DNA from: Symbiodinium sp. CCMP2592 | Taxonomy: Eukaryota; Sar; Dinophyceae; Suessiales; Symbiodiniaceae | Direction of reading: 5' to 3' | Assembly (NCBI GenBank): GCA_905221615.1 | Contig: CAJNDT010003435.1 | Span: forward strand, 249,437 to 313,436 | DNA: 64,000 bases | Shown here: one piece after another, positions 9,481 through 55,800 of the stretch | Position numbering within the stretch: the stretch's first letter is position 1 | How the letters are laid out: each line of letters starts with the position of its first letter | Position numbers and translations under genes: made by a program | The notes under the pieces: model-generated | What the model was told of the DNA's origin: nothing | Database searches by the model: none | The model's input: only the letters and a program-made list of their open reading frames with translations

Positions 9481-9575
9481 AACTCCTATAAACCCTAAAC
9501 CGTTTTTTTTTTTTTTTTGGATGGCTGCCCTGCCGGTCAGTACATGCTGATGTGGAGCTTCGGCCTCCCTTCGGG

Positions 9576-9715
9576 GTTTAGGGTTTAGGGTTTAGGGTTT
9601 AGGGTTTCGGGTTTAGGGTTTAGGGTTTTGGGTTTTGGGTTTAGGGTTTCGGGTTTAGGGTTTCGGGTTTAGGGTTTCGGGTTTTGGGTTTAGGGTTTCA
9701 AGTCCCTTTAGGGTT
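9576..9715 (-). repeat. Interstitial telomere-like array, TTTAGGG strand
   Basis: About 140 bases of TTTAGGG with TTTCGGG and TTTTGGG variants. It points opposite to the CCCTAAA array that ends just before 9500, so the two arrays face each other across about 75 bases that include a T-tract. Confidence 0.9.
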
Positions 9716-11672: not shown

Positions 11673-12330
11673 CCCCACAGCCTGAAACCCGCAGCCCTTG
11701 AATGTTTGTTGAATTTGAACTTGGTTCACGGTCACTTCAGCATAGACTACATCCGTGCGATATGTACCCATACTCCGTGCAGGGTCTGTAGGACGCTCGA
11801 CAAAGCGAGGGGCTTGTTGAGGGCTTTTGGAGGTTTAAGGTCTATAGAGTCTAGAGTTCAGGCAATTTAGGGGCTGCTGCTGGACCCTATGGCACAAAAC
11901 GTTAGCAGAACCCTTGCCCATTCTAGGTAGTCGGGCAGTCCAGAACCAAAAAATCCTGGCAGTAGATGTTCAGATCATGCGAGTAGCCGTTTAGCCCAAA
12001 GAATGTTGCATACGTGCCAACACTTGGATGATATTCACCTTGAAAAGAGACAAGTCAAGCAGGCAATGTAGGGAAGCCATCGTATCAGTTGTTTTCTCCC
12101 TATGTTTGGACATCATCAACGGACTCATCGGCAATGTGACGGAGGACTGGCTGCCAATGAGTGCTGTGAGTTTCTTTGCAAGGGTGTTGCATGTGCAAGG
12201 GTAGACAGTTATGTAAGCGTCTCAAACAGGGTCTGAATGACATCATTGTTCGTGAGTCTTGAATGAGGAAGCTGTTAGCCTCAGAACCCAGTCATCTCAT
12301 CAACCAGTCAGTTCGCCATCTTCTCAGAGC

Positions 12331-13476
12331 ATGGCATCTGAGGCTATGCAACCATCGCAACATGCAAAACGGGCAAGCATGGCGAACACTTGGCTCGCCA
12401 AAGTGAGCAACCCAGCATCGCAACAAGATGACAGCATTGATGGTTCCGATGATGCAAAGCGCCGCGAGCAAAAGTGGAACAATCTCCATGCAACACTGCA
12501 GGAGAAGAAGCTCAAGTCAGCTGGAGTTCAAGACAGCTCAGCAGGACCCAAGGATAGCCACCCGCCCCCCCCCCCCCCCGGCACGGTCGACGTGGATGCG
12601 AAGATCAAGGGCTATCGTGAGGCAAGGGACAAGCAGCTGCAGACACAATGTCCAAACATTTGCGTGGCATCAGAATCAGAAGTTTCGTCCTTGCCAAACA
12701 CGGTTGACATTGATGCAAAGATCAACGCCAGCCGTATGGCGAAGCAAGAGAAGGATGAGGCAGATCGGCAGAAAAAGCTCCAGGCACAACGGGCAGCGGA
12801 CGAAGAGCGCCGTGAGAAGCTTCGGGCAAAGGCGGAGGCAAAGGAGGAGGAGGAACGGGCAGCGCTGGCCATGAAAGCAGCACGGCTGGCCGAGGCGGAG
12901 GCGCAGGAACAAAGGAGAGTCGCAGAATATATGGCACAGCAGGAAGCGATGGCGCGGCAGCGAGAGAGAGAGCAGGAAGCGATCCGAGCAAAAATTGCTG
13001 CCGTGGCAGCTGCGAGAGAAGAGGAGATGCAACATGAAATTGAGCGCCGAAACTTGCCTTCCGAGCTTCTGCCATTTTTGCGTTCCACTCCTCACGGTGA
13101 AGACTGGGATACCAGAGTGGCCACCGCGAAAGTTCGCATGGAGGAAGAAATGCAGATGATAAAAGAACTTCGTTGGCGCAACTTGTCGCCTGAGCCAAAC
13201 CTTTTGTCAGAACTACGCTCCACTCCTTCAAGTGCAGATTGGAATACCAGGGTCGTCGATGCCTGGCGTGCCGTTGAAAAGGCATCAGGAAGAGATCCAT
13301 ACCCAGATCGGTGGACCCAGGACGAGGAGAGCCAACTGCAGATGATGATCATGTGCGATGCGCACAGTTTTGTACAGTTCAACAAGCGTGAAATCGAGTG
13401 GTTGCAAAAGAAGAAGCGATTTTGCTCAATGCGTGATCACAGTGCTGCTCCATGGGCAATTTATCAGCAGCCCTAA
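12331..13476 (+). CDS. Coiled-coil protein of unknown function (host gene)
   Basis: This is the only long, clean host reading frame in the window. The frame opens at 12256. I take the first in-frame ATG (12331), giving 381 residues; an upstream exon is possible because no ATG lies between the frame opening and 12331. Visible features are a Ser/Gln-rich start, a proline run (about residue 79) and a twice-used TVD-[VI]-DAKI motif. A long Glu/Arg/Lys/Ala-rich helix, surely a coiled coil, follows over about residues 135-245. Then come two copies of a motif of the type RNL-x-LR-STP-x-DW-x-TRV, about 50 residues apart, and a basic C-terminus. I recognise no catalytic motif, signal peptide or membrane span. 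The lack of introns is compatible with a retrogene. A possible polyadenylation signal AATAAA lies at about 14006. Function is unassigned; a cytoskeletal or scaffold role would be a guess. Confidence 0.7.
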   Translation: MASEAMQPSQHAKRASMANTWLAKVSNPASQQDDSIDGSDDAKRREQKWNNLHATLQEKKLKSAGVQDSSAGPKDSHPPPPPPGTVDVDAKIKGYREARDKQLQTQCPNICVASESEVSSLPNTVDIDAKINASRMAKQEKDEADRQKKLQAQRAADEERREKLRAKAEAKEEEERAALAMKAARLAEAEAQEQRRVAEYMAQQEAMARQREREQEAIRAKIAAVAAAREEEMQHEIERRNLPSELLPFLRSTPHGEDWDTRVATAKVRMEEEMQMIKELRWRNLSPEPNLLSELRSTPSSADWNTRVVDAWRAVEKASGRDPYPDRWTQDEESQLQMMIMCDAHSFVQFNKREIEWLQKKKRFCSMRDHSAAPWAIYQQP

Positions 13477-14089
13477 AGAAAAGTACAGGACTGCCAGACG
13501 TAGTTGAGCTGGTCGGTACACCTGTCTTTGTTCCTGTTGCCGGCAGCTGGAAATCTCATCAGCAGTAGCCTGGTGGGGAAGCCAGTGTCAGAGATGGGAT
13601 GTGCCAAAGGCAAATCTCAAGCAACTGAACAGTTTTCAAGCTAGGATATCCGACGTGCCACTGTTGTCCGAAAGAAGATGATCGAAGATGCATGATGTGC
13701 CGGACTGTGTGAGGATGTGCTCAGCGACACTAAACTTGTTCACCTTGTCGAACTGCGAGGATTCAGAGGATACCTATTCGTTCCTCATCACGTTGCCTGC
13801 CGTCCATCTGGACTGGGGTTAAGAGTGCAGTTCACCCTAAACCCTACCGTGATTGCGAGCGTCTGTGCGTGGCCGCGTGCGGTGTTGACTTAAATTGTTC
13901 CGCTTACCCCACCGCAACCTGCCACATTATCCTGCGTGAGGAGTCCGACAAATTCCTACCTCCACAAGTGCCATGGGTGGTTCGTGTGCTTTCGCTTGTT
14001 GCGCAATAAATCTTATATACCTGAAAGCCAGCGCAAATCCTGCCGTGACTTGAGTCGAAACAAACTATAAAGCTCATTAAAGCCAATGT
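13477..14089. other. 3' flank of the host gene up to the viral element
   Basis: No coding frame is apparent. Composition changes from mixed to AT-rich between about 13990 and 14090. A single AATAAA at about 14006 could serve the upstream gene. One CCCTAAACCCTA stretch lies near 13837. I could not find an inverted repeat or target duplication marking the left end of the viral element. Confidence 0.5.
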
Positions 14090-14312
14090 TTGTTTAAATC
14101 CGTACAAAATCATCTACAAAGTAGCACAAAAGCAGGCCCAGAACAAAAAGCAACAAGCACCGCACAACATCAAGTCTCAAAAGATGAAGTGGGTTTTTTG
14201 AGGCTAGTATTTGCATTAGGTAACAAGCTATGTGTAAAGCATTGGTTTGTTTTTTATTTACACAGTTTATTTCAATAATCTTCGGCTTGGCTAGTTTTGG
14301 AAGGCTTTCATT

Positions 14313-15046
14313 TCACTGCTTCACCATTTTTTGGTATCTACAGAAACCGCGCGTCCAGAAGCTTTCCCCTGCACTATCCGTCACTGATTCAGTTCGTAGC
14401 ACTTCTAGTTTTACATTTTGTTTTTTTGAATACATTATATGTTCAATACTGTTGGGTTCTTGTCTGTTTTCAATGTAGTCACATATCTTCTTTATAATAT
14501 TGGATATTGGTTCAATATGGGAGTTAATATAATCACAAAACCGTTGTTTAGTATCCGATCGTTTCTTAAATGTTTTGTCGTATTCTGTTTTTGCTTTATT
14601 CCGCAATTTGGTAAATATGTTTCTATACCATCTCTTCCATTCCATAGTGAATTATAACAGTTCCTAATTTCTTTATGGATTTTCTGATTGTAAACACCAG
14701 TGTCGCCATTTAGTATATGATTTACAACTTTTTTGTATGTTGGGAATAGGTTTAAATTCACATAATAATAAATGCTCGTGTTTCCTTGTTCTTTTGCACT
14801 TTCTCCATGTTCTTGTATTGTATACATATGTTTATCTTCAACTGCTTCAATGGTATTCTCAAACTTCTTCATGCTACAACCGTAAACGTGACTTTTTAAT
14901 GTTTTTAGTGTTGCACATGTCTCGCATTCAGTGTAACTGAATCTGCATATTGTTTTAATCGCACTTGCGGGTATTGGCAAGCTATACAAGTTAAGATTTT
15001 CTTCTTTACGACACATACTGATTTTTTCATTTATATATGTTTTCAT
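14313..15046 (-). pseudogene. Viral-element gene of unknown function, frameshifted
   Basis: One gene appears split into two overlapping frames, 15046-14492 then 14645-14313, with a frameshift near 14640. The N-terminal part has a cysteine cluster (C-x7-C-x2-C-x12-C around residues 34-58) suggesting metal binding. The C-terminal part is Lys/Arg/Asn-rich with a helical stretch around KKICDYIENRQEPN. It lies next to the integrase at the left end of the element. I do not recognise the family. It does not show Walker motifs, so it is not the missing packaging ATPase. Confidence 0.6.
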
Positions 15047-15204
15047 TTCAATGAATTTACGAATTCATTAATGATTTCTTCCTGTTCTTCTTCGGTGAAC
15101 ATTTCGATTATAATATAAGTAGATATTTCTTCTTTAAATACTTTTCTGAAGAATGTTTATTCCAAAGAATATTAAACCGTCAATAATTCGAATCTCAAAT
15201 AAGG

Positions 15205-16076
15205 TTAGTCCATACCCTCCACATAATAGTGACTTTGACTTAATGTCTTTTCTATTCTCTCAACGGTATACACATTTTTACTATAATTTCCGATCCTTTC
15301 TTTCTCATTCGGTTTTCGTTTCCTAAATATTTTAACTTCATCTCCACGATCTAACTCTGGATATATCCTATTCCGTTTACCACTACTAGCAATATTCAAC
15401 CTGACGGCAAATTAATTACTTGGTTTTCGTGCTTCTTTTGGTGTGAATTTTGCAGCGGAATGTATCATTTGGTTATCATATGTCAACAATATCTCGTGAA
15501 TATAATCAGTCCATTGAATATTACTTTTGCTCTTTTTCTCGTCAGCCTCAACTCTTTTATATAGCATGTCCTTAAAAGCTCTGATCGCCCTCTCACTGAA
15601 GTTTGCATGTGCCCTTGTCCTGTGGTGCTCTATTTTCTGTTCCTTTAAGTATGTTTGATTAGCTTCAGATAGAGCGCCTTCATCATCAGTATAAATCATC
15701 TTAGGTTATTCCCCATCTTATGCAAACACTCAATCATTCCTGAAGCCAGATCTTCTTCCTTCTTGCCCTTTATTGCTACCACATGCATAAACTTATCAAA
15801 GACATCTGTCATCATCATACCAACCTTAAACTTTTGATCTTCCAGATCATTTATAAAAAAACAAGTCCATCTGATACTCGTATGCCGAATGTGTTGCTAC
15901 AAAACTGTTCTGTCCCACAGGTTTTCTTTTTGCCTCAACATTCTTCTTGAAAAACTCATTGACATCGTCAATAGTTATACTTTTATCTTTCTCTCGTGCT
16001 TCCTTTAAGGTCCTCTGTCTGCTCCCATATCCCGGCGATCGTAATACACATCATTAAGTGTTTCTTGTTTACTCAT
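15205..16076 (-). pseudogene. Retroviral-type (rve) integrase of the viral element, disrupted
   Basis: Expected role: DDE-type strand-transfer integrase that inserts the linear viral DNA into the host chromosome. The start ATG is at 16074-16076. An N-terminal region with VYYDRR and TLKEAREKDKSITIDDV resembles the N-terminal region of Polinton integrases. The core shows the acidic residues in order: YQMDLFF (about 15865), IYTDDEG (about 15685) and NFSERAIRAFKD (about 15592). The tail after 15400 is a basic, beta-rich segment (RGDEVKIFRKRK) as in SH3/chromo-like integrase C-termini. Breaks: frameshifts near 16020, 15860 (a seven-base homopolymer) and 15700, plus an in-frame TAA at 15412-15414. 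The three acidic residues survive, but the gene cannot make a full-length protein as read. Confidence 0.88.
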
Positions 16077-16123
16077 ATAACTACAATACAAAAATATTGA
16101 TGTAATCTTATTTCTCAATTAAA

Positions 16124-16434
16124 TCAGCTGTCTTCTGTTCTCATGGACATCACAACTTTAACATTATTCATGTCATACTTCGGTCCTTTCTTATTCTGAC
16201 TGCTGTTGAACTCTGCCAGTTGCTCTTCGGTTAAATCCTCTATTGTGATATTGATATTGTTGTCTTTTAAATATTGCTTTAACTTCTTCTTTTGAATGCA
16301 CTTGAAAGCAGGGTCACTTTTTTCTGCATGTACCCTTCCTCCTGTCTTCGCTTGTAGTAATACAGTCGGTTGTAAATTGCCAACTTTTCTCTTATCTCTT
16401 CTATTGTCATATCCTTTGGGGTTTTCATAGACAT
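16124..16434 (-). pseudogene. Small viral-element gene of unknown function, one frameshift
   Basis: ATG at 16432-16434; the frame remains open upstream to 16497 but without an ATG. A frameshift near 16315 moves the reading from the frame containing MTIEEIREKLAIYNRLYYYK to that containing KKLKQYLKDNNINITIEDL, ending at TGA 16124-16126. The product would be about 100 residues, highly charged and helical. It sits between the integrase and the divergent replication gene. No recognised family. Confidence 0.5.
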
Positions 16435-16574
16435 ATTACTGTACAATGTATTATAGTAATTCGTTAAGAAGTGATTTTTCTGAACATGAAATCCCAATAA
16501 AATATTCAGTTTGAAAAACTTATCTCCACAAAGACATTTAAATATAAAATATGTTACAGTCTAAGTATATTGGC
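16435..16574. promoter_or_regulatory. AT-rich divergent intergenic region (putative promoters)
   Basis: About 140 bases between the start of the minus-strand gene (16434) and the likely start of the replication gene (16575). It is strongly AT-rich and must hold promoters for both directions. No defined motif can be named. Confidence 0.4.
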
Positions 16575-19063
16575 ATGAGTAAGACAATGCGGTGTGAAAG
16601 CATTAGAGACAGTGTATGGTTTTTATAAAGGCAGACTTAAAAGTGCAACCAAAACAAAAAACAAACATATCATCGGTTTATTCGATGACAGAAAAATGGC
16701 ACAGTTCACGACAGCTGACAAACTAATAAGGAACTTCATCAATGCCAAGACAGACCAGCAAAAGCAGAAGGCAAGCGACCAATACAACAAGGTATACGAT
16801 AAACACAAGGAAAAGAAACCACTAGGAGAACGAATGCAAACAGCTAAGCGTGACAACAAACCCACAGAAATCCGCAGACGACTAACACAGAAGACCGAAG
16901 TTCAGCGAATGCAGAGGAGGGTGAGAGCGGAACAATCAGAGGAAACACATGCATTTTCCGTAGACCTTATGTCCTTCAAATTTAAACCCCCCACGGATAC
17001 CATCAAAGCATCCTTCAAAGACAGCAAGGGTAGACCACTAATCTCGATCTGGTATGAGACCAAGAGAGCAACTATACAAACAACAGGTTATACAGAAGAC
17101 TTATCTGGCAGACGTGTGTTTCAATATGAGACCAAAGACAGGTATGTTTTCAAGAAACTATTGAAGACAATAATGTTGGACCCAGATATGTCGGCTTACT
17201 GGAGAAGAGCACCAACACTGTATCTAGAAGTTATGCCTTTGACAGTCTACGGGAAGCATTGTCTTATCAACAGCAGGTGGGTGGAAAAATCAACAAGGTG
17301 TCATCGTTTTATGATGAGGAGGTAGATAATGGTAACGATGATGTGGGTGAGTATATAGAGAAGGAGAGTGACAAACACTATTATTGCCTGACTATCTCTG
17401 ACAGAGCCACTCTACGAAATGGATACATTTACATAAAGGAACTTCTTTTACAACACCAGAACCACAAAATGCATGAAGGTTATAGCACACTGATCGCTAA
17501 CCACATAGATGTATGGAGTGTTAAAACCGATGCATTTACGATCAGGAAGGACCACCTCAGTCTAGTAAAGAAGGTTCTACAATTCAATGATCATATCGGC
17601 GGGTGGAGACATGAAAAGGGTAATCATATAGTAGACCCGAGAGACGCGCACAAGGCGAAAGTGAACAATTTAATGCTCATACCCGTGTCAAAAACCGATC
17701 CCTTGCCTATAGAAGATGAGTGGGATACCAAGCAGATTGCAGAAGACATCGATAAGCACAATCCTCTAATGATACGTTCTAAATATGCAGGAGGAGGTAA
17801 GTCACATATCGCCAAATACTTTAGCAAACTTGGTTGCAAGACTTTGTTCGTAGTTCCACAGAACAAGCTATCACAAAACATACCAGATGATGCTGTAATT
17901 AACGACAAACAAGTTTTTCTCTATACCTGTGGGCGATGGAGACAAGCTTCCTGAATTTGATCACAGCCAGTATAATGTGATAGTTTTTGATGAGATTTAC
18001 ATGACCGGACTGCGCGTTCTGAATTGCATAAGAGGGTTTTGTGAACAACAACCCAGACAAAGTTATCATAGGAGCAGGTGATGTGAAACAGCTTCCACCT
18101 GTGTGTGATGATCTGACTAATACAAGGAATGCTGGTGAATACTCTGATGAATGTATAGATCAGACTTTTAAGTATAATTTTTGCTTAAGGTGTGTAAGCG
18201 ACTTGGTCCCAAGGACGACCCAAAGGCAAACACAAACAGAGAAGAATTAGACAGCATGTATGACGATATGTGAATACATCGTATTCCATTAGAAGAGATC
18301 GTGCCTAAATTATTGTAAAATGACAGATGATGTTACAAAGGCATTACACAACATCGCCTATACCAACATGAGATGTCTGAATGTGTCTGTTTATATAGGA
18401 AGCACTTGGGCAAGAAAGATAAATGCGAAGTGGGTGACACATTCATATGCAGAGTGTATAAACAATTGGGTAACCAGCGGTTTAATGTGAACTACAGGTA
18501 TCGGATCATAAGTGTGACACTACCAGCACTTACACTAGAGAATGTAAAATCCAAGCAGAAGTTCACTACTGACATATACACATTAGTTAAGCACTTCGGA
18601 TATGACTACTACACTGAAATGCCACTCAGCACAGGGTGCATCCATAGACGGTCAAATCATAGTCCATGAGTGGGAGATGAAACACCTAGTAACTCGTGAA
18701 TGGATATGGTGTGCCCTTACCAGAAGCACAGACTTTAACAAGGTAAGGTTCTTCAAAAGTGCAACCAACCAGAAGGAATTAAACGAAGAAGCTTTAACAA
18801 AATACATATCAACTAAGATCAAGAATCACCAGATGCAAGATGAGAATGCCAACAGGGTTATAGATGTTGGCAAATATGTTAATCACGAGTGGTTTATGAA
18901 GCGGCTGACTAACACATGCTGTAACTGTGGTTGTCGTTTTGAACTTGATATTAAGAACGGAAACCTAACGAGTAACATGACTGCACAAAGATTAGATAAT
19001 GAGCAACCGCACCATATAGACAATTGTGAGGCATGGTGTCGGGGATGTAACACAAGTGCTTAG
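16575..19063 (+). pseudogene. Replication protein: PolB-palm-like segment, SF1 helicase and HNH-like zinc domain (multiply frameshifted)
   Basis: The longest gene of the element, read in at least six frame pieces. ATG 16575 is followed at once by a shift into the frame running 16594-17325, an N-terminal basic helical region of unknown family. The piece 17259-17954 contains SVKTDAF (17517-17537) and GGWRHEKG (17599-17622). This resembles motif C and the downstream segment of divergent family B polymerases; I infer this, and recognisable A and B motifs are missing. Helicase motifs are clear: Walker A AGGGKSH (17787-17807), Walker B VIVFDEIY (17975-17998), motif III GDVKQLPPV (18076-18105), then HSAQGASIDG (about 18623) and ALTRST (about 18712) for motifs V and VI. 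The C-terminus has CCNCGC (18917-18934) and RLDN, H, NC, WCRGCN, an HNH/endonuclease VII-like zinc domain. Expected role: unwinding and copying viral DNA. Inactive as read. Confidence 0.85.
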
Positions 19064-19084
19064 TAAAAAACACTAGTGTGTTTT

Positions 19085-20412
19085 TTTATTTAATTCTTCT
19101 TTAGTCTTATATTTAAAACGTTTTCTACCTATTATCAACGGTTTCTCTATACAGTTTTTGCAATTCTTTTAATGCTTCTTTCTGAGCAGTAGGAACACCT
19201 CTATTAGACACCCATTTATTATAGAGAATTCATTATAGAGACTTCTATACTGTCTATAAGTTGTAGTGATACTGGCGTTTTTATTATTAGCATCTTCAAA
19301 GGTTTCACGTAGTTTCTGAATTCCTATTTTACTTGGCATAAACAAGGGTCTCATATTCAAGTCTTCTCGTGAAACATCTTCATCTTCTCGGGCACTTTCC
19401 TTTAGGTTGGTCCTCTTTAGTTAGTCTGGTTCGCGGTCTTCTTGGTGGTTGTTCATCTGCTTGTCTTGCAAAACCGTCAGGTCCGTCAGGTTGTCTTGCA
19501 GAACCTCGTGGGAATTGAAAGTTTCTTGACGACGATGATGATGATCCACCTTGTGGAACATTTGGTATCGGTGCTGGTAATGCTGGTTGCTGAACTGCAG
19601 GGGGTAGTTGTTGTTGAGTAGCACCCACATTAGGTTGATGAGATTGTAAAACAATAGATGGCGGTAGCTGTGCTATATTGGGGGTTGCCCTCCATGGATT
19701 ATTAGGCGGTGTTCGGGGTGCTTCTAAATCGAGACAGGGGCGAGGTTGTGGTAAAATCCTTCTCATGACTGCATCGCCTATACCACTTAACACTGGTTCT
19801 GCCAGTCCTCCTGCCACCGATGTTGTTAGATCATGCCCTGATGCTAAACCACCTGCCAATATTTCTGCCTACTCTCATGGAGCCTCTTCCTAGACTTCTT
19901 AATATTCCGTCTCCTTGCTGTTGTTCTCGTTCTACCTCTTGCTGGTGTGCCTGAACGATGTCCTGTTGGTTTGCTTGTCGTGTTTCTTCTGCCCTCTGCA
20001 TAACTCCCTCTAATTCCGCCCGTGCAATTTCTTCTTCTGTGTCAAGAAACTCGTCATTGCCATATTCTTCTTTTGGAGTGCCGATATTATACATTTCAGG
20101 TCGCGCTGGTGTGTCTGTTCCTCCTTCTGCTCCTGCGTCCCACAATGCCCTATGAGTGAGATCGTTGTCCGTAGCATACTGTCTTAACATGTGATCTCTT
20201 ACCACCCGTTCATTAATTCTTTTTTGCTCTGCTTTCAATCTGTCCAAATGGTCACTACCATCAAAATACGATCCTTTATTACTAGCCTTGTAAAATACTG
20301 CATCTCTGTTGGGAAAGGGTTTCAATGCTTCTTCGTTATCATTGACAAGTTCCAAGATGTCTTCATATCGTGACCTTCTATGAAGTTGTATCAGTGTTTT
20401 ATTTCGTGTCAT
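19085..20412 (-). pseudogene. Pro/Gln-rich virion-like protein of the viral element, frameshifted
   Basis: ATG at 20410-20412. The first frame (to 19831) encodes a charged N-terminal region followed by a glutamine-rich helix (about residues 125-170) and a basic Gly/Arg stretch. A frameshift near 19860 leads into 19859-19380, with a glycine-rich hydrophobic patch (VAGGLAEPVLSGIGDAVMRR) and a long Pro/Gln/Ser linker. Further shifts near 19370 and 19140 lead into short helical pieces (MPSKIGIQKLRETFED and PTAQKEALKELQKLYRE). It is the last gene of a minus-strand block that starts with the penton gene, 26 bp after the coiled-coil gene, so a structural or packaging-associated role is likely. Family not recognised. 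Confidence 0.6.
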
Positions 20413-20438
20413 TCTGTTATATATTCTTATATAGAAAT

Positions 20439-20795
20439 TTACGATTTAGAAATTTTATGTTCACCTAATGTTTCCAAGGTTTGCATTCTGTTTCTTAAAT
20501 GCTCTATAGATGTCTCTGGAATTCTTGGGTTATGCATTTCTGTTTTTAACCTGTCAATTTCCATTGCGTAATTGTCTTTCATTTGCCCCTCTAATAGTCT
20601 TCTCTTCATTGCTAGATTTGCTACCCGTGCTTCTCTGGCGTCCATCTCCTTTTTCAAATTCAACAAACAATCAATATTAGGCTCGTGATCGTGGAAGTTT
20701 AAGTCAGATGCTTCATTTACCACGGGATCCTCTAAGGACTTGTGTTTCTTCTGTTGCTTTTGTTGTCTACATTGGTATTTGTTATATAAAACCAT
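20439..20795 (-). CDS. Small coiled-coil protein of the viral element
   Basis: Intact frame of 118 codons with ATG at 20793-20795. The first 20 residues are Lys/Gln-rich. The rest is helical with heptad-like leucines (for example LKKEMDAREARVANLAMKRR) and ends in a basic tail. It lies between the zinc-binding gene (49-bp gap, filled by a TA run) and the Pro/Gln-rich gene (26-bp gap), in the same direction, so the block is probably co-regulated. Function unknown. One of the few unbroken genes in the element. Confidence 0.6.
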   Translation of the reverse strand: MVLYNKYQCRQQKQQKKHKSLEDPVVNEASDLNFHDHEPNIDCLLNLKKEMDAREARVANLAMKRRLLEGQMKDNYAMEIDRLKTEMHNPRIPETSIEHLRNRMQTLETLGEHKISKS

Positions 20796-20802
20796 TGCTA
20801 TC

Positions 20803-20836
<34 letters not shown>

Positions 20837-20844
20837 CATATTAT
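20796..20844 (-). promoter_or_regulatory. TA-run between viral genes, possible promoter
   Basis: The 49-bp gap consists mostly of TATATA alternation immediately upstream of the ATG at 20795. AT-rich stretches at such positions are typical of promoters in this virus group, but the run could also be a simple microsatellite. Confidence 0.4.
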
Positions 20845-21417
20845 TTACCTAGATTTTTTAGGACGGGATTTAAACATTGCTTGACACATACTATTTGCCT
20901 TTTCCTGTTTTCTTCTCATTATTTCTTGGTTCATGGTTCTCATATGTAACTGATATAGTTGAGCCTGTGTCAAATTGTCATAAGGTTGCATGTTTGGAGG
21001 CGGTGGCAGAGGAGGACTTTGTCCCCCCTCAAACCTAGGTCTCGGGGGCATTGCTTTACAAACTGGAGGTGGGGCTTGTTGTGGAATTGTTCCATGTGTC
21101 TCTGCACTTACTGGTTTTACTGCACCTTCGGTTTCACATTGTTTTTTTCTCACTGGCTTTTCAATTATATTACTTGGATTACCTTCACATGTGTCTTTAT
21201 GAGTATACCTAGCCGTCTTCATTGTAATAGTCTTGTGACAGTCCTGACACTCTGTCCTTTGCTTTGCAACCTCTCTGATTTTTACTCTGGAAGGTTTTAG
21301 AGTTTCATTCTTGTGGTCCTCTGCCGTTTCAGGTTCCATTTCTTCTATGGTTTCAGGTGGTTCTTCTGGTTTAGGTGTTTCATCAACGGGTAGCATTTCA
21401 ATGTTTTCTTCAGTCAT
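20845..21417 (-). CDS. Zinc-binding, proline-rich protein of the viral element
   Basis: Intact frame of 190 codons with ATG at 21415-21417. An acidic Pro/Glu-rich N-terminus (about residues 1-45) is followed by a compact cysteine/histidine cluster: ECQDCHKTITMKTARYTHKD then TC, i.e. C-x2-C followed by H and C about 13-18 residues later (about residues 56-77), which looks like a single zinc finger. Next comes a Pro-rich linker (PPPPPNMQPYDNL) and a basic Met/Lys/Arg-rich helix at the C-terminus. Its ATG overlaps the end of the penton-like gene by a few bases, so the two are tightly linked. A virion, DNA-binding or regulatory role is possible; the precise family is not recognised. Confidence 0.65.
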   Translation of the reverse strand: MTEENIEMLPVDETPKPEEPPETIEEMEPETAEDHKNETLKPSRVKIREVAKQRTECQDCHKTITMKTARYTHKDTCEGNPSNIIEKPVRKKQCETEGAVKPVSAETHGTIPQQAPPPVCKAMPPRPRFEGGQSPPLPPPPNMQPYDNLTQAQLYQLHMRTMNQEIMRRKQEKANSMCQAMFKSRPKKSR

Positions 21418-22350
21418 ATATATATATATGATGTTCTAGATATTTTCTATTTAAAATCCATGTATTCAGCATAATGAAGAAGTCTCTACATGTCCTGATT
21501 GTGAACAATGTGGAGAGAGTGACATTTATACCATTTAGATCTATAACATTCCCTGCTCCATCCGTTATTCTAAATGTTAACATTTTGATGTTTCTTTTGG
21601 ATACATTTATACAGTCAAAATCTGTTATTCCATAACTGTCGCTAATAATACCTGCAAATGGTGCATTAACTGGGACTTTTTTGAATATTGCGATTGAAAA
21701 AGCAGAAGGGCTGTGAAAATTCTTATTAGACAATTCAGGACAAGAAATATAATCATCAGGACAGTTTATCAGATTTATAGACCCTGTTGACCAAGGGGAG
21801 GATGAAGTGAATGCGTCAACAAGTGGTGTGGTGAAACCCAAGACGTTATTAATAGAGTTCAAGTTATTAAGATCAACGGAATTGGAGAATGAACCAACAA
21901 AAGTAGGAACATCTGTATCAGTCAAGGGTATAAACACGACTTCGCTGTAGCTAGAAGATATTGTAATCTTATTCGTTAAAGTATCATATATAACAGAATA
22001 AGAGTTAGTCCTTCTGCCATTATCAAAGAAGGCATCTAATTGTGTTTCCATGGCTGAGGCTAGATCAGGAGCAGTGTAATTTCCTACTGGTATCTCAATT
22101 CTTCTATATGTTATTCCTTGGGGTGTGGCAGGTGGTAATATCTGATGTCTAAATTACAGGTTCTGATTGTTTGTACTGATTGAACACCATGCATTGGGAA
22201 TAGCTACCTTGTGCACTTGCATAATGGTATTATCAGGTATGTCGAAGGTGTCCTGCAACTCTATTTTTCAATCCGAAGTTGATTTACTGTCAGAAACTCT
22301 GTATTGGGAATTATTATAAACTTTTTGTATGTTAAAGGTCGGAAACTCAT
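21410..22350 (-). pseudogene. Minor capsid / penton-like protein, disrupted N-terminal half
   Basis: ATG at 22348-22350, stop TGA at 21410-21412, about 310 codons. Features typical of the single-jelly-roll vertex protein of Polinton-like elements: an early HKVAIPNAWCSIS segment, the motif IEIPVGNYTAPDLASAM (around 22090-22040), and near the end FRITDGAGNVIDLNG, followed by a hydrophobic strand. Breaks: a frameshift near the start (between about 22350 and 22270), an in-frame TGA at 22268-22270 and TAA at 22154-22156. From 22051 to the end the frame is intact (213 codons). It is transcribed divergently from the major capsid gene, 40 bp away. The penton assignment is inferred from motif pattern, position and size. 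Confidence 0.75.
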
Positions 22351-22390
22351 ATTAATAACAGATAAAATATTTGTATGAATTATTAATATA
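22351..22390. promoter_or_regulatory. Bidirectional promoter region between penton and capsid genes
   Basis: The 40 bases between the two divergent ATGs are almost all A/T and contain ATTAATA near one end and TATTAATA near the other, an imperfect palindrome. Both capsid genes must be transcribed from here or from within each other's 5' ends. It is a plausible shared late promoter. Confidence 0.55.
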
Positions 22391-23782
22391 ATGACAAGAG
22401 CTCAGTCTCAATTAGACAACATGCTGAAGTCTAACGGGAGAATATCTAAATCTAACGGAAACGAATAGTTAAAATTTGTAATCACGGGTGAAGATAATAT
22501 TTATATTGATTTGTCCAGTGTTTGTTTGTTCTTTGATGTTGTCAATACATCCGTTACTGCAGGTCAGTACTTGCGCCCTTTAGGTGAGAGCCATGCATTC
22601 TGTTCCAGATACAGATGCAATGGAGCAGGACAACAACTAAACGATGTTGATAATTGCAACCAAGTGTGCGAAGAAATGAAATCATTCACAAGCGAAGAAG
22701 TGGGAAATTTAGACGATATTCAAGAAGGTTGCTTAACAAGATACGACAGTAGAAATAACCGACTGTTTGCTTACACTATAGAAGCACATGATGCAACAGC
22801 AACAGCAGGGGCAAATCAAAGAGGCGTCGTTCTACCGAAACTAACACGAATTAATACTACAGGAATTGAACAGGGTAAGTTCGTTCGGATGGGGCATAAG
22901 CCTTGTTGTGGGTTCGTTCAATCTGGATATTATCCTCCAATTCGGTATTGTCCTCTGGAATTTATTTTTGAGATTGTTTCAGATGCAGGTGAGCCAGTTA
23001 TCAGACCAGCAACACCAGTTGCAGGAACTCAAGCCGCGATTGATGAAAACGGCTTATATTTTACAACACGCAATACTACCACAAGTTGGTCAATTCAGAA
23101 CTGCATCCTAAGATGTGAATTGATACAGGTGGACAATACCGTCAACAATAACATAGTTTCACATTTATTGAAAGGGGGTAGGCTTAGAATGGTTCATCCC
23201 GCCTATCGCAGTTTTTCTAAAACCTTCACTGCACGAAACACAGAGATCAACATGAACACAGTTAAGTCTTCAACTCGATTGTCTCAGATGTTCTTCGCCT
23301 TTAGCAACAGCAATATCAATAATGACAACACGGCAGGTAATTATGACAGATTGAGATGGAACTACTTTTTCCATCCCATGGCTGTGTCCATTGATAATCT
23401 GGAAGGTGTGATCGACAGCGATAGACACATCTCGGCGCAAATACAAATAGCAAACAAGAAGTTCCCAGAACAGGAAATATCAAGTATAGCTGAGTTTATG
23501 TATTTCTTGAGAAGAGCAGTCAATGTAATGAGCCCCTATTATGATGGCTTTAGTATTGGCATCTATCGTTATGCTAATGATAAATTTATACGCGGCATAA
23601 ACTTCGATAAGCAGCCTGATATGCATTTCACAGGTTCCAACACGAAAAGGGGCTCCTTAATCACTTTTAAAATCAAAGGAGTCAACCAAAACTTCGTGCT
23701 AGGAATTGAAAGAGTTTTCATAACAGCCGTGTCAGAACAGATCTTTGAATTATCGGAGAGCGCCTCGACTGTTCTTGACTAA
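22391..23782 (+). pseudogene. Major capsid protein (double jelly-roll), single in-frame stop
   Basis: Forms the pseudo-hexameric capsomers of the virion. ATG at 22391, stop at 23780-23782, 463 codons, a normal length for Polinton-like capsid proteins. The frame is continuous except for one TAG at codon 26 (22466-22468). Diagnostic segments: DNIYIDLSSVCLFFDVV (about residues 35-51), then SHAFCSRYRCNGAGQQLNDV (about 67-86) in the first jelly roll; in the second, YDGFSIGIYRYAND, then HFTGSNTKRGSLITFKIKG and the C-terminal QIFELSES-type ending. The fibre gene follows 63 bp downstream. The frame is remarkably clean compared with neighbouring genes. The TAG could be a real nonsense mutation, a sequencing error or, less likely, readthrough; a shorter product could also start after it. 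Confidence 0.9.
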
Positions 23783-23845
23783 ATAAAGTTATCATCATAC
23801 GTCTAAATTGTTTAATATTGTTTAATATTGGCTTCACTTAACAAT

Positions 23846-24757
23846 ATGACTACAATCTTCGCAAATGAGATATACAAAGTATTTAGCAAAGGTGTAAGTG
23901 AAATAAGTGAACAGGTCGCCGCTACTGAGTATGTTGACAACGAAATATCCAATATTAATGTTGGATCTGGAGGCATAACACAACAGGATTTAGACGATGC
24001 GATAAATCCGATTATAACAGTTAATGACGGTCAGACTTGAGAAATCACTGATATTACTAATAGTCTAGCTAATAATTTCCAGACAGCAGCACAGCTTAAT
24101 ACAAATTTTCATAATAAGACAGAGGTAGACAACGCTATCGGTGTTGTGGATGGTAAAGCACTTACTAATTTCAATGCTATAAATGCCATAAATGCTAATT
24201 TAACTAATAATTACCAAACTAATACACAACTAGCAGCCAACTATTACAATAAGACCGAAATAGATGCTAATAACTGGATTGATGCAACATCATTAGCACC
24301 ATATGAGTTTAACTAAATAATTTAGGTATTGGTGTTATTGCCGGTGCTAATAGATTATCAGTCGGCGATGGCAACTCTAATTTAGTTTTCAAGCATCAAC
24401 AACATTTAACAATGAGATTTTAGTTTATAGTAGAGGAAGAATATACCAACAAGGAAACGTTAATTCATCATGAAGTTTTATATCAACAAACGAACAAAAC
24501 TTTTCAATACAAAATAATAGAAACGCCGACCCACAATCATCAGACATATATTTACAATTGAATGATGTAGCAGGTATTACATTAAACAGACCTACTACTT
24601 GTAATGAAACGCTTGATGTAATAGGTAATTTCTGCGCCGAGAATGAATTTCGTGTAGGTCTTGGAGCTACTGGTTCACCCGAATTTCGTGTCTTAGGTAA
24701 TTCGCTTGATTTCTATGAAAAGCTTAGTATTACACATCAAACAGCAGTAGGAGCTGA
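23846..24757 (+). pseudogene. Fibre-like protein, broken and truncated at the element's right end
   Basis: ATG at 23846. The frame runs to an in-frame TGA at 24038-24040 and continues open beyond it to 24316; later segments are in other frames, with more shifts near 24320, 24410 and 24470. The protein is Asn/Thr/Ile-rich. It contains short repeats of the type NYYNKTEID and NFHNKTEVDN, similar to trimeric shaft repeats of phage and viral fibres. A final segment, GLGATGSPEFRVLGNSLDFY, looks like part of a tip or trimerisation domain. The coding signal stops abruptly at about 24757, where CCCTAAA-like host repeats begin, so the 3' end is missing. Role inferred: host attachment. Confidence 0.6.
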
Positions 24758-27700
24758 GCCGGAAAAGCCTGCAAACCTTAGGCCCCGAACCCTAAATCCC
24801 CGAGCCCTCAACCGGAGCCTAAGATGCTCCGCAGTTCATTGCCTATTTGGGTTGCAGCGAGCTGCAGCAATTCACTCTTATCTGCTACACACCGGAGGTC
24901 TCCTATCTAAGTATGCAAGAACGTGCGTAAGCATGTACGTATGGGCATATGGGTGCATACTCTTTCAGTCAGAAAGTTGTCAAACAGGCTTGAGTCGAAG
25001 AAGTCTCCCCCGCACCCACGGGCCGCATGGCGCCTGCCGACGACGGCGAGCAAGAACTCGAGGCTTAGGGTTTAGGGTTTCGGGATTTCCGTCTGTTCTT
25101 ACTCACTTGCTCTGGTTTTGTCGTGGGGCCAGAGGCTTGCGGCGGAACTCGCGAAACGGTTCTGAGGTTTCCAGTTTGGGGCCTTCAGCAGCGGCTAGGC
25201 GTCTAGGCCTTAAGCCAGCAACCAGAGCTTTAATTCCAACATCCTCAACCCTCTCGATCGGGTCACAAGGTGGGATCACGGTAGGTAGGATTAGGGGATT
25301 CCGTAAAGAAGGACCCTGGTGCAGGATTGCCGCAGCTGCCTTGATCCCAACTTTAGCTCTTGGATTCTGGACTCGCTCTGCACGGTGTCGGCCTCTGGTT
25401 CTTCGACCCTGGACCCTAATACTTTCTCTATAGTCTCCTTAGTTTTTTTAATTTTTGTGCATATGAATCTCAAGAGAATATGAAGAATATCAGTTTTAGT
25501 TTGGTTCTAAGGGGAATTCAGAATATTTTCTAGGCTCTCTATGCAAGTGCTTGAGGTTTGAGCTTTGGGGTTTAGGGTTCAATGGTTGAGGCATCTACTA
25601 GGTGGCACTCTGGGAAGCTTTGGAATTTCCCTTATGGTTCCTAGAAAGGTACCTATTCATAAATACGTTTCAGGGCCCAGTTTACTAGTAGAGGGGGCCT
25701 TTCCACCAGGGTTTTGGGGCCCATTCTACTATAAGGCAATAGGCTAGAAGGAACACCGAAAAAGTATGAGTAGTTTTTTTAGGCCCCTACATTTATTTGT
25801 TGAGAATCTCCCCTGTACCTGCAGGAAGCTGCTGACAACTCGCGGTTCGTTGAGGAAGATGATGACCCAGGTGGGGGAGCTCCCGGACCCCTTTCATCAT
25901 GAGGACTTCTAAGGAGGGTAAGTTTAGGGTTTAGGGTTTTTTGGGTAGGGCCCTAATAAGGATCATCATGAGCTTCTCGGCTTTCTCAGCTTTCTTGATG
26001 CTCAGGTGCAAGTCCTGCGATAGACAGCAGATGAAAAGGGGTGAATATGTAGTTATAGTCAATGGACGCCCAAAGGCTTGCCAATGTTATATCATTCGGT
26101 TCGTTATGGTAATTATACTGCAATATACCCCCCCAAGCCCTATTCTAGGTTTTCAGAACCCCTACAGTAACCCACCGTACAGGAAGCCCATTCCAGTTCC
26201 CAGACCCCTGGGAGGATCTAGAAAAAGTAGATCCCCTAATTTGGGGCCCTATACTACTAAGGGTACTTTATAGGAACCCCCATTAAGAAATCTGCTTTTT
26301 CGATCCTCCCGGGGGTCTGGGTTGTTAAGGCCCGCGGTTTTCAGATGGTTTAGGTTCTTGGGTGTCCGAATTTTGGAGTTGCCCTCGGGACCCATCGGTG
26401 GACCATCAAATGTCCTGGAGCGCAAACCCAGCACCCCTAAACCTTAAACCCCAAACCCTAAACCCTAAACTCTAAGCCATAATTATTGCTACTGTTGTTC
26501 TGGTGCAGGGCCTCACATCTACGCAGTGGATTGCCCGGCTGCGCTTCGGTCGCAAGCCGTGGGAGTTGTGCTTCCGTGATCAAGGTAAAGACAAAAGCAA
26601 TATTTACTAGGGTTCAGGGTTGAGGGTGCAGTGATATTAGAAAGAGCTGCTAATCCATAATGCCATAAATGACAAGTTAAGCCGAGATGAGGTCGGGCCG
26701 CCGAAAACGGTGCAGGGTGGGGAGATCTAGAAAATGAACAAGCAGGCCCGCCGTAATTAAGCCTCAACATCCTGCCGAAACGAAGCACCCGATCAACGTT
26801 TTTGACACATGACTGCAACGGCCGTGCGCACTTCAACAGCAAACCCCAAACCCCTAAACTCCTAGAGCCCAAAAAGACTTACAGCCCTAAACCTAAACCC
26901 CTCGACCCCCAAACCCTAACCCCAAACCGTAAATCCGAATGCCGAGGTTTTCCTGAGTCCGAACTGGGCCTCGGCGGAAGAGGTCGCAGATGTCGTGGAC
27001 TGTGGCGATGCCTTTGATGTCCCTGCCGTGCCAAGGCCTTAGGTGGGAAGTGAATCTGTAAGGGTTCCATAAGGGATCTACAATCTTAGATGTTTTAGGG
27101 GGTCAACATGGTTTCTCTAAGGATCATATGACTTCTATATGGGTTACATCTACTACAAGGGTTTCAGGAGTTTTGTATGTGTTTTTTGTGGGTTCCACGA
27201 GGAGGATCTTTAAGGGTTCTGGAAGAATTCTGTAAGGGTTCCATCCGCGTTTTAAAAGGGTATATACTAGACTGAGTCTACAAGGGTTGCACATGGGATC
27301 TACAAGGGTGCTACACACGATCAACAAGGGATCTAGGAAGGTTTAGGCTGAGGGATTCGTTCCTGCTCTTGCTTGGGGTTTGGGGTCGGAGTTCGGCAAA
27401 ATCTCTCCGGCAGCTGCACTTTGTATTGTGTGGAGAATGGGCAAGTATTTTGTGCAACAGGGCTGGAGTCACCAGAGTCTGTAGTCTAGGCAGGACATAC
27501 ATAGACAATCAGAAATGCATTTGAAACACCGACAAAGCAGCCCACAAATGCACAAACAAGCAAGCATGCAAATGTACGCACGATTGTTTGTGTTTTGAAG
27601 CTCGCGCAGAACGAGCGGCAGTGACCAAACAGTCCAGCAGCATACGCACACAAGGAAGCACGGGCAAGCATGCACACAACAAAAACACAAACAGCGCCCG

Positions 27701-45714: not shown

Positions 45715-47038
45715 CTCCCTTCAAACCCCGATATAGTCCCAAAGCTCAACCTTGAGTTCCATAGGATGGTGGACAAGTACAACAGAAGCCCAAAAGTTGG
45801 AAACCCAAAAACCTCACCCTTAAGAGTAATGTATAGGGAATCTCAGCACTATCTGGCCTTAATCCGGTTTCCAATTTTATGGGGTTTACTGCAAAGGAAC
45901 CCCCAAACCCTATAGATCCTTTAAAGGGTCCCTTATAGATCCTATTAAGGAACCCCTACTGTAAGTCGCAGTGAAGATGACCTTGCAGTCGATGTGCCTC
46001 ACCACACGGAAGACAGCGGTCATGGTCCGAACCTCAACATGGCTTCGTCCTTCAGCGCTGCAGCTCACAGCTGCTGCGGGGCTGCCATTCAATCGACTCA
46101 GCAGACGTCTTGAGGTTCGGATTCTGCAGGAGATTCTGGAGATGATGTGCCTCGTCTGCGGTATGTTCCTGCAGAATTGGAAGGTCGGGAGCAGGCTTGA
46201 TGAGTTAGGTGGTGCAGTCGAATCGCGGCAAACGGATCCATTCCTTGATGTGTCAGAGGCCACGACACATGAATGAGTGCATACTGAAGCCTGTTTCCTC
46301 AGCAACACAGTATTTCGGAATATGGCTCGTGCGCTAACATAAGGCATCTGAAGTCGAAGTCTGCCAAGCGCCTGGGTTCGGGCCCTCGAGCGCGTGGGAG
46401 TCGACCTGGGTCCTGTTGCATGCTTCAATCGCTTCCAGGGATGAGGGTTCATACGGTTTAGGTCTTCATAGGGTCTTCTAGGGGGTCCCAATGCAAGCAC
46501 ATTGCTGGAGAGACCCAGTTGACATCTGCATCGCCAGGGATCGGAGAAGTGATCATTCCGATGCTTTATCTTGAGCAGTGTCCTGAGGAGAGACGTCATC
46601 CATCTACGAGTGCTTCCAAGAGTTCAAGAGGTGGGGAGCATCGAGACAGTGGCGAATGGTAGAAAGGTTTCAGTCAAGTAGCCTATGCCCTTGCTTCGGT
46701 CGCTTCGCGAGAGTAGGGCAGAAACAGCCGAGTGCCTATGCAGTAGGTCTGCAAGTCTGTCGTCCCTGTATGACTATAGCACGTAGACTATGCCCCTTAA
46801 ACCGAGTCTCTAGTCATGGGGGATCCTGTGCCCTAAACCCTCAGAGCCCCAAGAACCCTAGCAAAAAACCATATTTTAAACACTTTTGATGCCCCCCAGA
46901 TGAATTTCCTGATAAGACTCCAGTAAATCTGGAAGGCCCCGAAAGAATATGGCGAACCCGTATTAAAACCTTAGGAAAGCCTCGCAAACAGACTTCGCTT
47001 ACAAACAATCAAGTCTTTGAAGCCCTTCCAGGCTCCCT

Positions 47039-47214
47039 AAGCCCGAAGCCCTAAACCCTAAACCCGAAACCCCTAAACCCTTAAACCCCTAAACCCCTAA
47101 ATCCCAAACCCCTAAACCCCTAAACCCTTAAACCCTAAACCCGAAATCCCTAAACCCCTAAACCCTAAACCCCTAAACCCTGACCCGGAACCCCCAAACC
47201 CTAAACCGCTAGTT
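47039..47214 (+). repeat. Interstitial telomere-like array
   Basis: About 175 bases of CCCTAAA and CCCCTAAA units, one of the longest arrays in the window. Confidence 0.9.
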
Positions 47215-54995: not shown

Positions 54996-55130
54996 GTAAA
55001 CCAATGCTTATGATTCTCAAGTAAGACTCAAAGAGTCGACGGCGTGATTTGGTTGCTTGCTGGCCCCTTGTTTGCTGCCGCTGCGTATTGCGATTAGTAC
55101 TGTCACTGTTCTTGTTGTTATGACTATATC

Positions 55131-55139
55131 TATATATAC

Positions 55140-55188
<49 letters not shown>

Positions 55189-55532
55189 TATATAACATAT
55201 AACATATAACATATAATATATAATATATAACATATAATATATAATATATAATATATAATATATAATATATAAAATATACTATATAATATATAATATATAA
55301 TAGATAATATATAATATATAATATATAATATATAATAGATAATATATAATATATAATATATAGTATATAATATATAATAGATAATATATAATAGATAATA
55401 GATAATAGATAATAGATAACAGATAATATATAATATATAATATATAATATATAATATATAATATATAATATATAATATATAATATATAATATATAATAAT
55501 AATAATATATATATATATATATATATATATGG
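55131..55532. repeat. Palindromic AT-rich repeat block
   Basis: About 400 bases of TATAATA/TATAACA minisatellite, flanked on each side by a 30-40 base TA run. The outer flanks CACTGTT...TTATGACTA (about 55105) and TAGTCATGATAACAGTG (about 55536) are inverted, so the whole block can fold as one large cruciform. Tyr/Ile frames across it are artefacts. Confidence 0.85.
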
Positions 55533-55674: not shown

Positions 55675-55800
55675 GTTAGGGTTTAAGGGTTTAGGGTTTA
55701 GGGTTTAGGGTTTAAGGGTTTAGGGTTTAGGGTTTAAGGGTTTAGGGTTTAGGGTTTAGGGGTTTAGGGGTTTAGGGGTTTAGGGGTTTAGGGTTTAGGA
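55675..55800 (-). repeat. Telomere-like array, TTTAGGG strand
   Basis: About 125 bases of TTTAGGG and TTTAGGGG/TTTAAGGG units. Lies about 140 bp after the palindromic AT block. Confidence 0.92.

Follow-up and report, generated by a model that had tools for sequence, protein, structure and literature searches.

Genes of the AT-rich block

The window analysed here is a 64,000-nucleotide stretch of contig CAJNDT010003435.1 (positions 249,437 to 313,436), and our subject is a block within it, rich in adenine and thymine (AT-rich), that carries in interrupted form the genes of what is most probably an endogenous polinton-like virus. The best two-level segmentation by guanine-cytosine (GC) content places the borders of this 10.7-kilobase (kb) block at 14050 and 24740, with a GC content of 37.6% over 14090-24757 against 49.1% in the remainder of the window. 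Its open frames fall into four groups: a minus-strand group at 14313-16435, the larger part of which is the probable remnant of an integrase; a plus-strand group at 17193-19054 (perhaps from 16579) with the replicase; a minus-strand group running from 22345 down to 19169 and headed by the penton gene; and a plus-strand group at 22445-24740 formed by the capsid and fibre genes. All five of these genes (capsid, penton, fibre, replicase, integrase) are interrupted. A first-pass annotation, made from the sequence alone, had proposed at this place an AT-rich 10.7-kb endogenous polinton-like provirus with a double-jelly-roll capsid gene, a penton-like gene, a fibre-like gene and a superfamily 1 helicase, and each of these elements was recovered in the present analysis by segmentation, by comparison with relatives or by fold. 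No frame of the window that was scanned against Pfam or NCBIfam scored above cut-off; matches to PHROGs had an expectation value (E) of 0.0087 or worse, and sequence searches of the PDB reached E 0.67 at best.

The identity of the major capsid gene as a double-jelly-roll protein, a feature of polinton-like viruses, is confirmed by both sequence relatives (60 in number) and fold. After one stop near its start the frame continues for 437 open codons. In tblastn it aligns, starting at 22445, with residues 44-488 of a 488-residue relative (P0001), whose residues 1-43 have no counterpart anywhere in the window; the matched frame contains an in-frame stop at its residue 8. The gene is thus not of normal length, contrary to what had been supposed at first. 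The clade of the window's capsid comprises 16 of the 60 relatives (74-91% identical), and the cluster of P0001 holds 272 member sequences. This clade is separated by a long branch (37-43% identity) from a clade that contains three distant relatives with the source name Skav (P0042, P0045 and P0048), which we take to stand for Symbiodinium kawagutii. In all three Skav proteins, to judge from their lengths, the capsid is preceded by an N-terminal stretch of at least 200 residues, and in P0042 and P0045 this stretch shows a GHSLAS motif of lipase-like appearance. The capsid (as a single sequence and as an alignment), the replicase alignment, two replicase relatives and an integrase frame were scanned against viral contigs without yielding any confirmed relative, and a tblastn search of phages with the capsid found nothing.

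The penton (minor capsid) protein, likewise a feature of polinton-like viruses, is confirmed by 71 sequence relatives, obtained with the open part 22153-21413 as the query, and by the fold of one of them, P0184, the cluster of which numbers 147 sequences. Another relative (P0197) matches the Pfam family DUF5901 above its cut-off. The penton frame of the window has two in-frame stops. The neighbouring fibre-like frame, in which Pfam finds nothing above cut-off, contains two NKTE[IV]D repeats; a fibre function is suggested by the relative P0060, a single predicted protein that combines capsid and fibre sequence and matches the window at 24113-24268.

The replicase

The helicase gene is, by its sequence motifs and relatives, a Tlr1-like replicase, i.e. 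a fusion of a protein-primed polymerase palm, a superfamily 1 helicase and a C-terminal HNH nuclease, which agrees with the helicase/HNH replication protein proposed earlier. Of 352 candidates compared with its 274-residue frame at 17130-17951, 129 qualify as relatives at E≤0.01 (120 of these are listed), and the KTDA and P-loop GxGKS motifs belong to the invariant or nearly invariant columns of the alignment. Motif C of the palm and the P-loop of the helicase share this one frame, as they do in the relatives, so that the palm-helicase fusion characteristic of Tlr1-like helicases is present in the window, albeit with the motif A region missing.

The most informative comparison is with an unbroken protein. 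A scan of a collection of bacterial and archaeal genomes confirmed at least one locus, hereafter L001. It is a contig of 4856 bases (JAIXOF010000124.1) from an assembly labelled Cyanobium, probably a misbinned fragment of a polinton-like virus, and it also encodes a C2H2 zinc-finger-like protein. Its 1294-residue replicase has motifs A, B and C at 550, 663 and 786, Walker A at 883 and the HNH part at 1243-1287, as placed by a string search with motif patterns; Cys and His stretches that may belong to vOTU or priming domains ahead of the palm were recognized, by eye and by string search, in L001 alone. Against Pfam the protein matches AAA_30 and UvrD_C_2, both under their cut-offs. The replicase pieces of the window align in order with L001 residues 618-1288 through frames 3, 1 and 2, the alignment before 17193 being poor and containing stops. 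For the helicase-HNH piece (18587-19060) the match to L001 residues 1147-1288 has an E of 2e-31 with 36% identity over 145 columns; the HNH part also gives a weak match to a PHROG endonuclease VII (E 0.0087). Since the HNH lies at the same place in L001, which is ~35% identical, the comparison supports the view that it is an old, shared part of the protein.

On the other hand, nothing in the window matches residues 1-617 of L001 at better than E 3.5. The sequences of P0084, P0066 and P0115 ahead of the shared stretch give at best E 0.045, in a match that falls in the integrase region. We therefore consider the polymerase motif A region to be gone from this copy. The frame at 16579-17220, which by eye gave the impression of being the N-terminus of the L001 protein, matched it by BLASTP with an E of just 0.53, and we leave the frame unassigned.

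A probable integrase remnant

On the minus strand at the left, a rve integrase is probably present as a remnant, as suggested by its motifs. A 97-residue frame (15705-15412) contains D, D and E in order, with TDxxG, a glutamate 30 residues past the aspartate, and a Y...H...P.EA ending; we take these motifs to be typical of rve integrases. The combined pattern occurs once in the six-frame translation of the window and in none of 20000 shuffles of the frame, but it was composed after the frame had been viewed, so that all the shuffles establish is that composition does not account for the order. The acidic motifs reported in the first-pass annotation are there, in order, in a single frame, although neither Pfam nor NCBIfam recognizes any of the integrase pieces.

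Other features of the window

The coordinates of all features are collected in Table 1. Among the frames with no assigned function, that at 21435-20845 contains a C-x2-C...H...C stretch. The provirus is adjoined on its left by a 406-residue frame (12256-13476) rich in Glu, Arg and Ala, for which Pfam has no match above cut-off. A second AT-rich kilobase, at 55125-55530, is a long TATATAA-type array, in which tblastn with 251 relatives found no viral matches. Degenerate TTTAGGG/CCCTAAA arrays are numerous across the window (1-64000; e.g. 9574-9698, 47035-47207 and 55676-55799), scattered in the host DNA in the manner of telomere-like repeats that have spread internally.

Table 1. Features of the AT-rich block (positions in the window)
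Feature	Position	Strand	Basis
AT-rich provirus remnant, whole	14050..24740		two-level GC segmentation
Two overlapping frames at the left end, function unassigned	14313..15064	-	no Pfam match above cut-off
Probable integrase remnant in five open pieces (16435-16124, 16050-15847, 15896-15696, 15705-15412, 15411-15205)	15205..16435	-	motifs only
Open frame directly before the replicase pieces, perhaps the N-terminal part of the replicase	16579..17220	+	no Pfam match
Tlr1-like replicase remnant: palm end with motif C, superfamily 1 helicase, HNH; frames 3, 1, 2	17193..19054	+	relatives, tblastn mapping
HNH nuclease part of the replicase	18902..19054	+	alignment with L001
Frames with no assigned function (21435-20845, 20801-20439, 20445-19831, 19868-19380, 19420-19169)	19169..21435	-	no Pfam match above cut-off
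Penton gene remnant	21494..22345	-	71 relatives, tblastn extent, fold of relative P0184
Double-jelly-roll major capsid gene, N-terminal part missing	22445..23782	+	60 relatives, tblastn extent, fold
Fibre-like remnant, interrupted	23816..24740	+	repeats, P0060 match

A probable dead copy of an endogenous polinton-like virus

We consider it highly likely that the block represents an endogenous polinton-like virus which is dead and has lost part of its sequence, in the genome of what is likely a protist. Only the source name Skav, on distant relatives, points to a dinoflagellate, our best guess for the host. The element is a further copy of a kind already known from many protist genomes, and no new virus type. 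Judging from family membership, its intact relatives would insert their DNA by the rve integrase and copy it in a protein-primed reaction by the palm of the Tlr1-like polymerase-helicase, with the helicase opening the strands and the HNH nuclease at its C-terminus; the product would be enclosed in an icosahedral shell built from double-jelly-roll capsomers with pentons and fibres. The palm of the intact protein is possibly still active in spite of a motif C that has lost its first aspartate (PMC11071308; this and the other articles cited are used in excerpt). The copy described here would be incapable of such a cycle because its replicase and integrase are in pieces.

Several observations weigh against this reading. 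The integrase pieces, as said, match no family profile. A comparison of 13601-14900 with 24201-25400 for terminal inverted repeats gave a score of 26, within the range of 100 shuffles (mean 23.5, largest 31); the termini of the block may have been lost. Even with up to 3 mismatches allowed, no relic of the dinoflagellate spliced leader was found in the window. The private changes of the window's capsid fit a loss of selection, but the signal is modest: there are 22 of them among 294 comparable positions, 7 of which fall at sites where the distant clade is constant to 90% or more, compared to 21 and 3 for P0001 to P0005 together and 32 and 3 for P0006. Finally, neither a packaging ATPase nor a protease can be seen in this copy: the frames scanned have no Pfam match of either kind, and the only P-loop in the six frames of 14050-24757 belongs to the helicase.

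The last of these points could indicate a lineage that is genuinely reduced, lacks packaging ATPase and protease and spreads as a capsid-coding satellite or as a transposon; the first-pass annotation had suggested that this copy may belong to a lineage with a helicase/HNH replication protein and with neither of the two visible. The absence holds for this copy; it does not define a lineage, since other genes of the copy have demonstrably lost pieces, and it is simpler to assume that the ATPase and protease were lost from this copy as well. The length of the block also falls short of the 14-40 kb stated for such elements in the excerpts of PMC10120064 and PMC12220804. We therefore regard a reduced lineage as very unlikely. 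There is equally little to recommend the fuller version of this idea, that the capsid clade represents a separate, amplified lineage that gave up its own ATPase and protease, fixed the HNH as a working part of the replicase and lives as a satellite of a helper virus.

A less improbable, though still unlikely, alternative to a dead copy is that the element is intact in the organism and appears broken due to collapsed similar copies in the assembly or to read errors. The large clusters of relatives (272 sequences for P0001, 147 for P0184) are compatible with this, and false frameshifts in collapsed short-read contigs of such elements are warned of in the part of PMC10120064 used here. However, it is not only the continuity of frames that is lost at this locus: the polymerase motif A region and residues 1-43 of the capsid have no match in the window at all, and the search for terminal repeats was negative. 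The same missing stretches, together with the in-frame stops, make introns unlikely as the sole cause of the broken frames. As for a Polinton in the strict sense or an adintovirus, with a free-standing protein-primed polymerase, the capsid, the penton and the probable rve integrase are common to both groups. The palm and the superfamily 1 helicase are, however, joined in one protein here and in the relatives, a form which the excerpt of PMC11071308 ascribes to the Tlr1-like replicases of polinton-like viruses and transpovirons; a free-standing protein-primed polymerase with an exonuclease domain was not seen in the window, in a copy that is damaged. This alternative appears scarcely credible to us, and it was rejected as a better name on the form of the replicase (a polymerase-helicase fusion), which likewise gives no support to the label adintovirus-like used initially.

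On the preferred reading, the record of polinton-like viruses in protist genomes gains one more decayed locus with well-defined limits, whose capsid clade is set off by a long branch from that containing the Skav proteins. The comparison of replicases turns the role of the HNH, as a passenger or as a worker in replication, into a testable question, and the locus cautions against inferring a gene set from a single damaged copy.

Comparison with known systems

A literature search found no mention of this locus, which does not by itself show that the locus is unpublished. Among the described systems, the endogenous polinton-like viruses of dinoflagellates with a capsid of the 'Dino' group (PMC10120064, in the part consulted) resemble it as low-GC endogenous elements with a double-jelly-roll capsid. 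This group was compared by description and through the three named Skav proteins only, and the clade containing these is the one from which the window's clade is divided by the long branch at 37-43% identity.

With regard to the replicase, the Tlr1-like helicases, as excerpted from PMC11071308, carry polymerase, vOTU and further N-terminal domains and have HNH or GIY-YIG at the C-terminus; they share with the window the palm with an altered motif C, the superfamily 1 helicase and, in some members, the C-terminal HNH. The replicase of the window differs in being broken and in lacking the motif A region. HNH-helicase fusions are reported, among others, in 12 Symbiodinium elements, and they stand beside rve integrases in Rhodomonas (PMC12220804, excerpt). 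The polinton-like viruses of Rhodomonas, Cryptomonas and Symbiodinium described there are thus akin to the present element in having a helicase with HNH beside a rve integrase, except that the HNH is called N-terminal in that source, whereas it is C-terminal in the window and in L001. OmPLV of Oxyrrhis marina, from a different dinoflagellate lineage (PMC12721341, excerpt), is likewise a low-GC endogenous element with fragmented replicase genes. Unlike the element described here, it has the helicase first, followed by a full polymerase with an exonuclease, and a tyrosine recombinase instead of a rve integrase.
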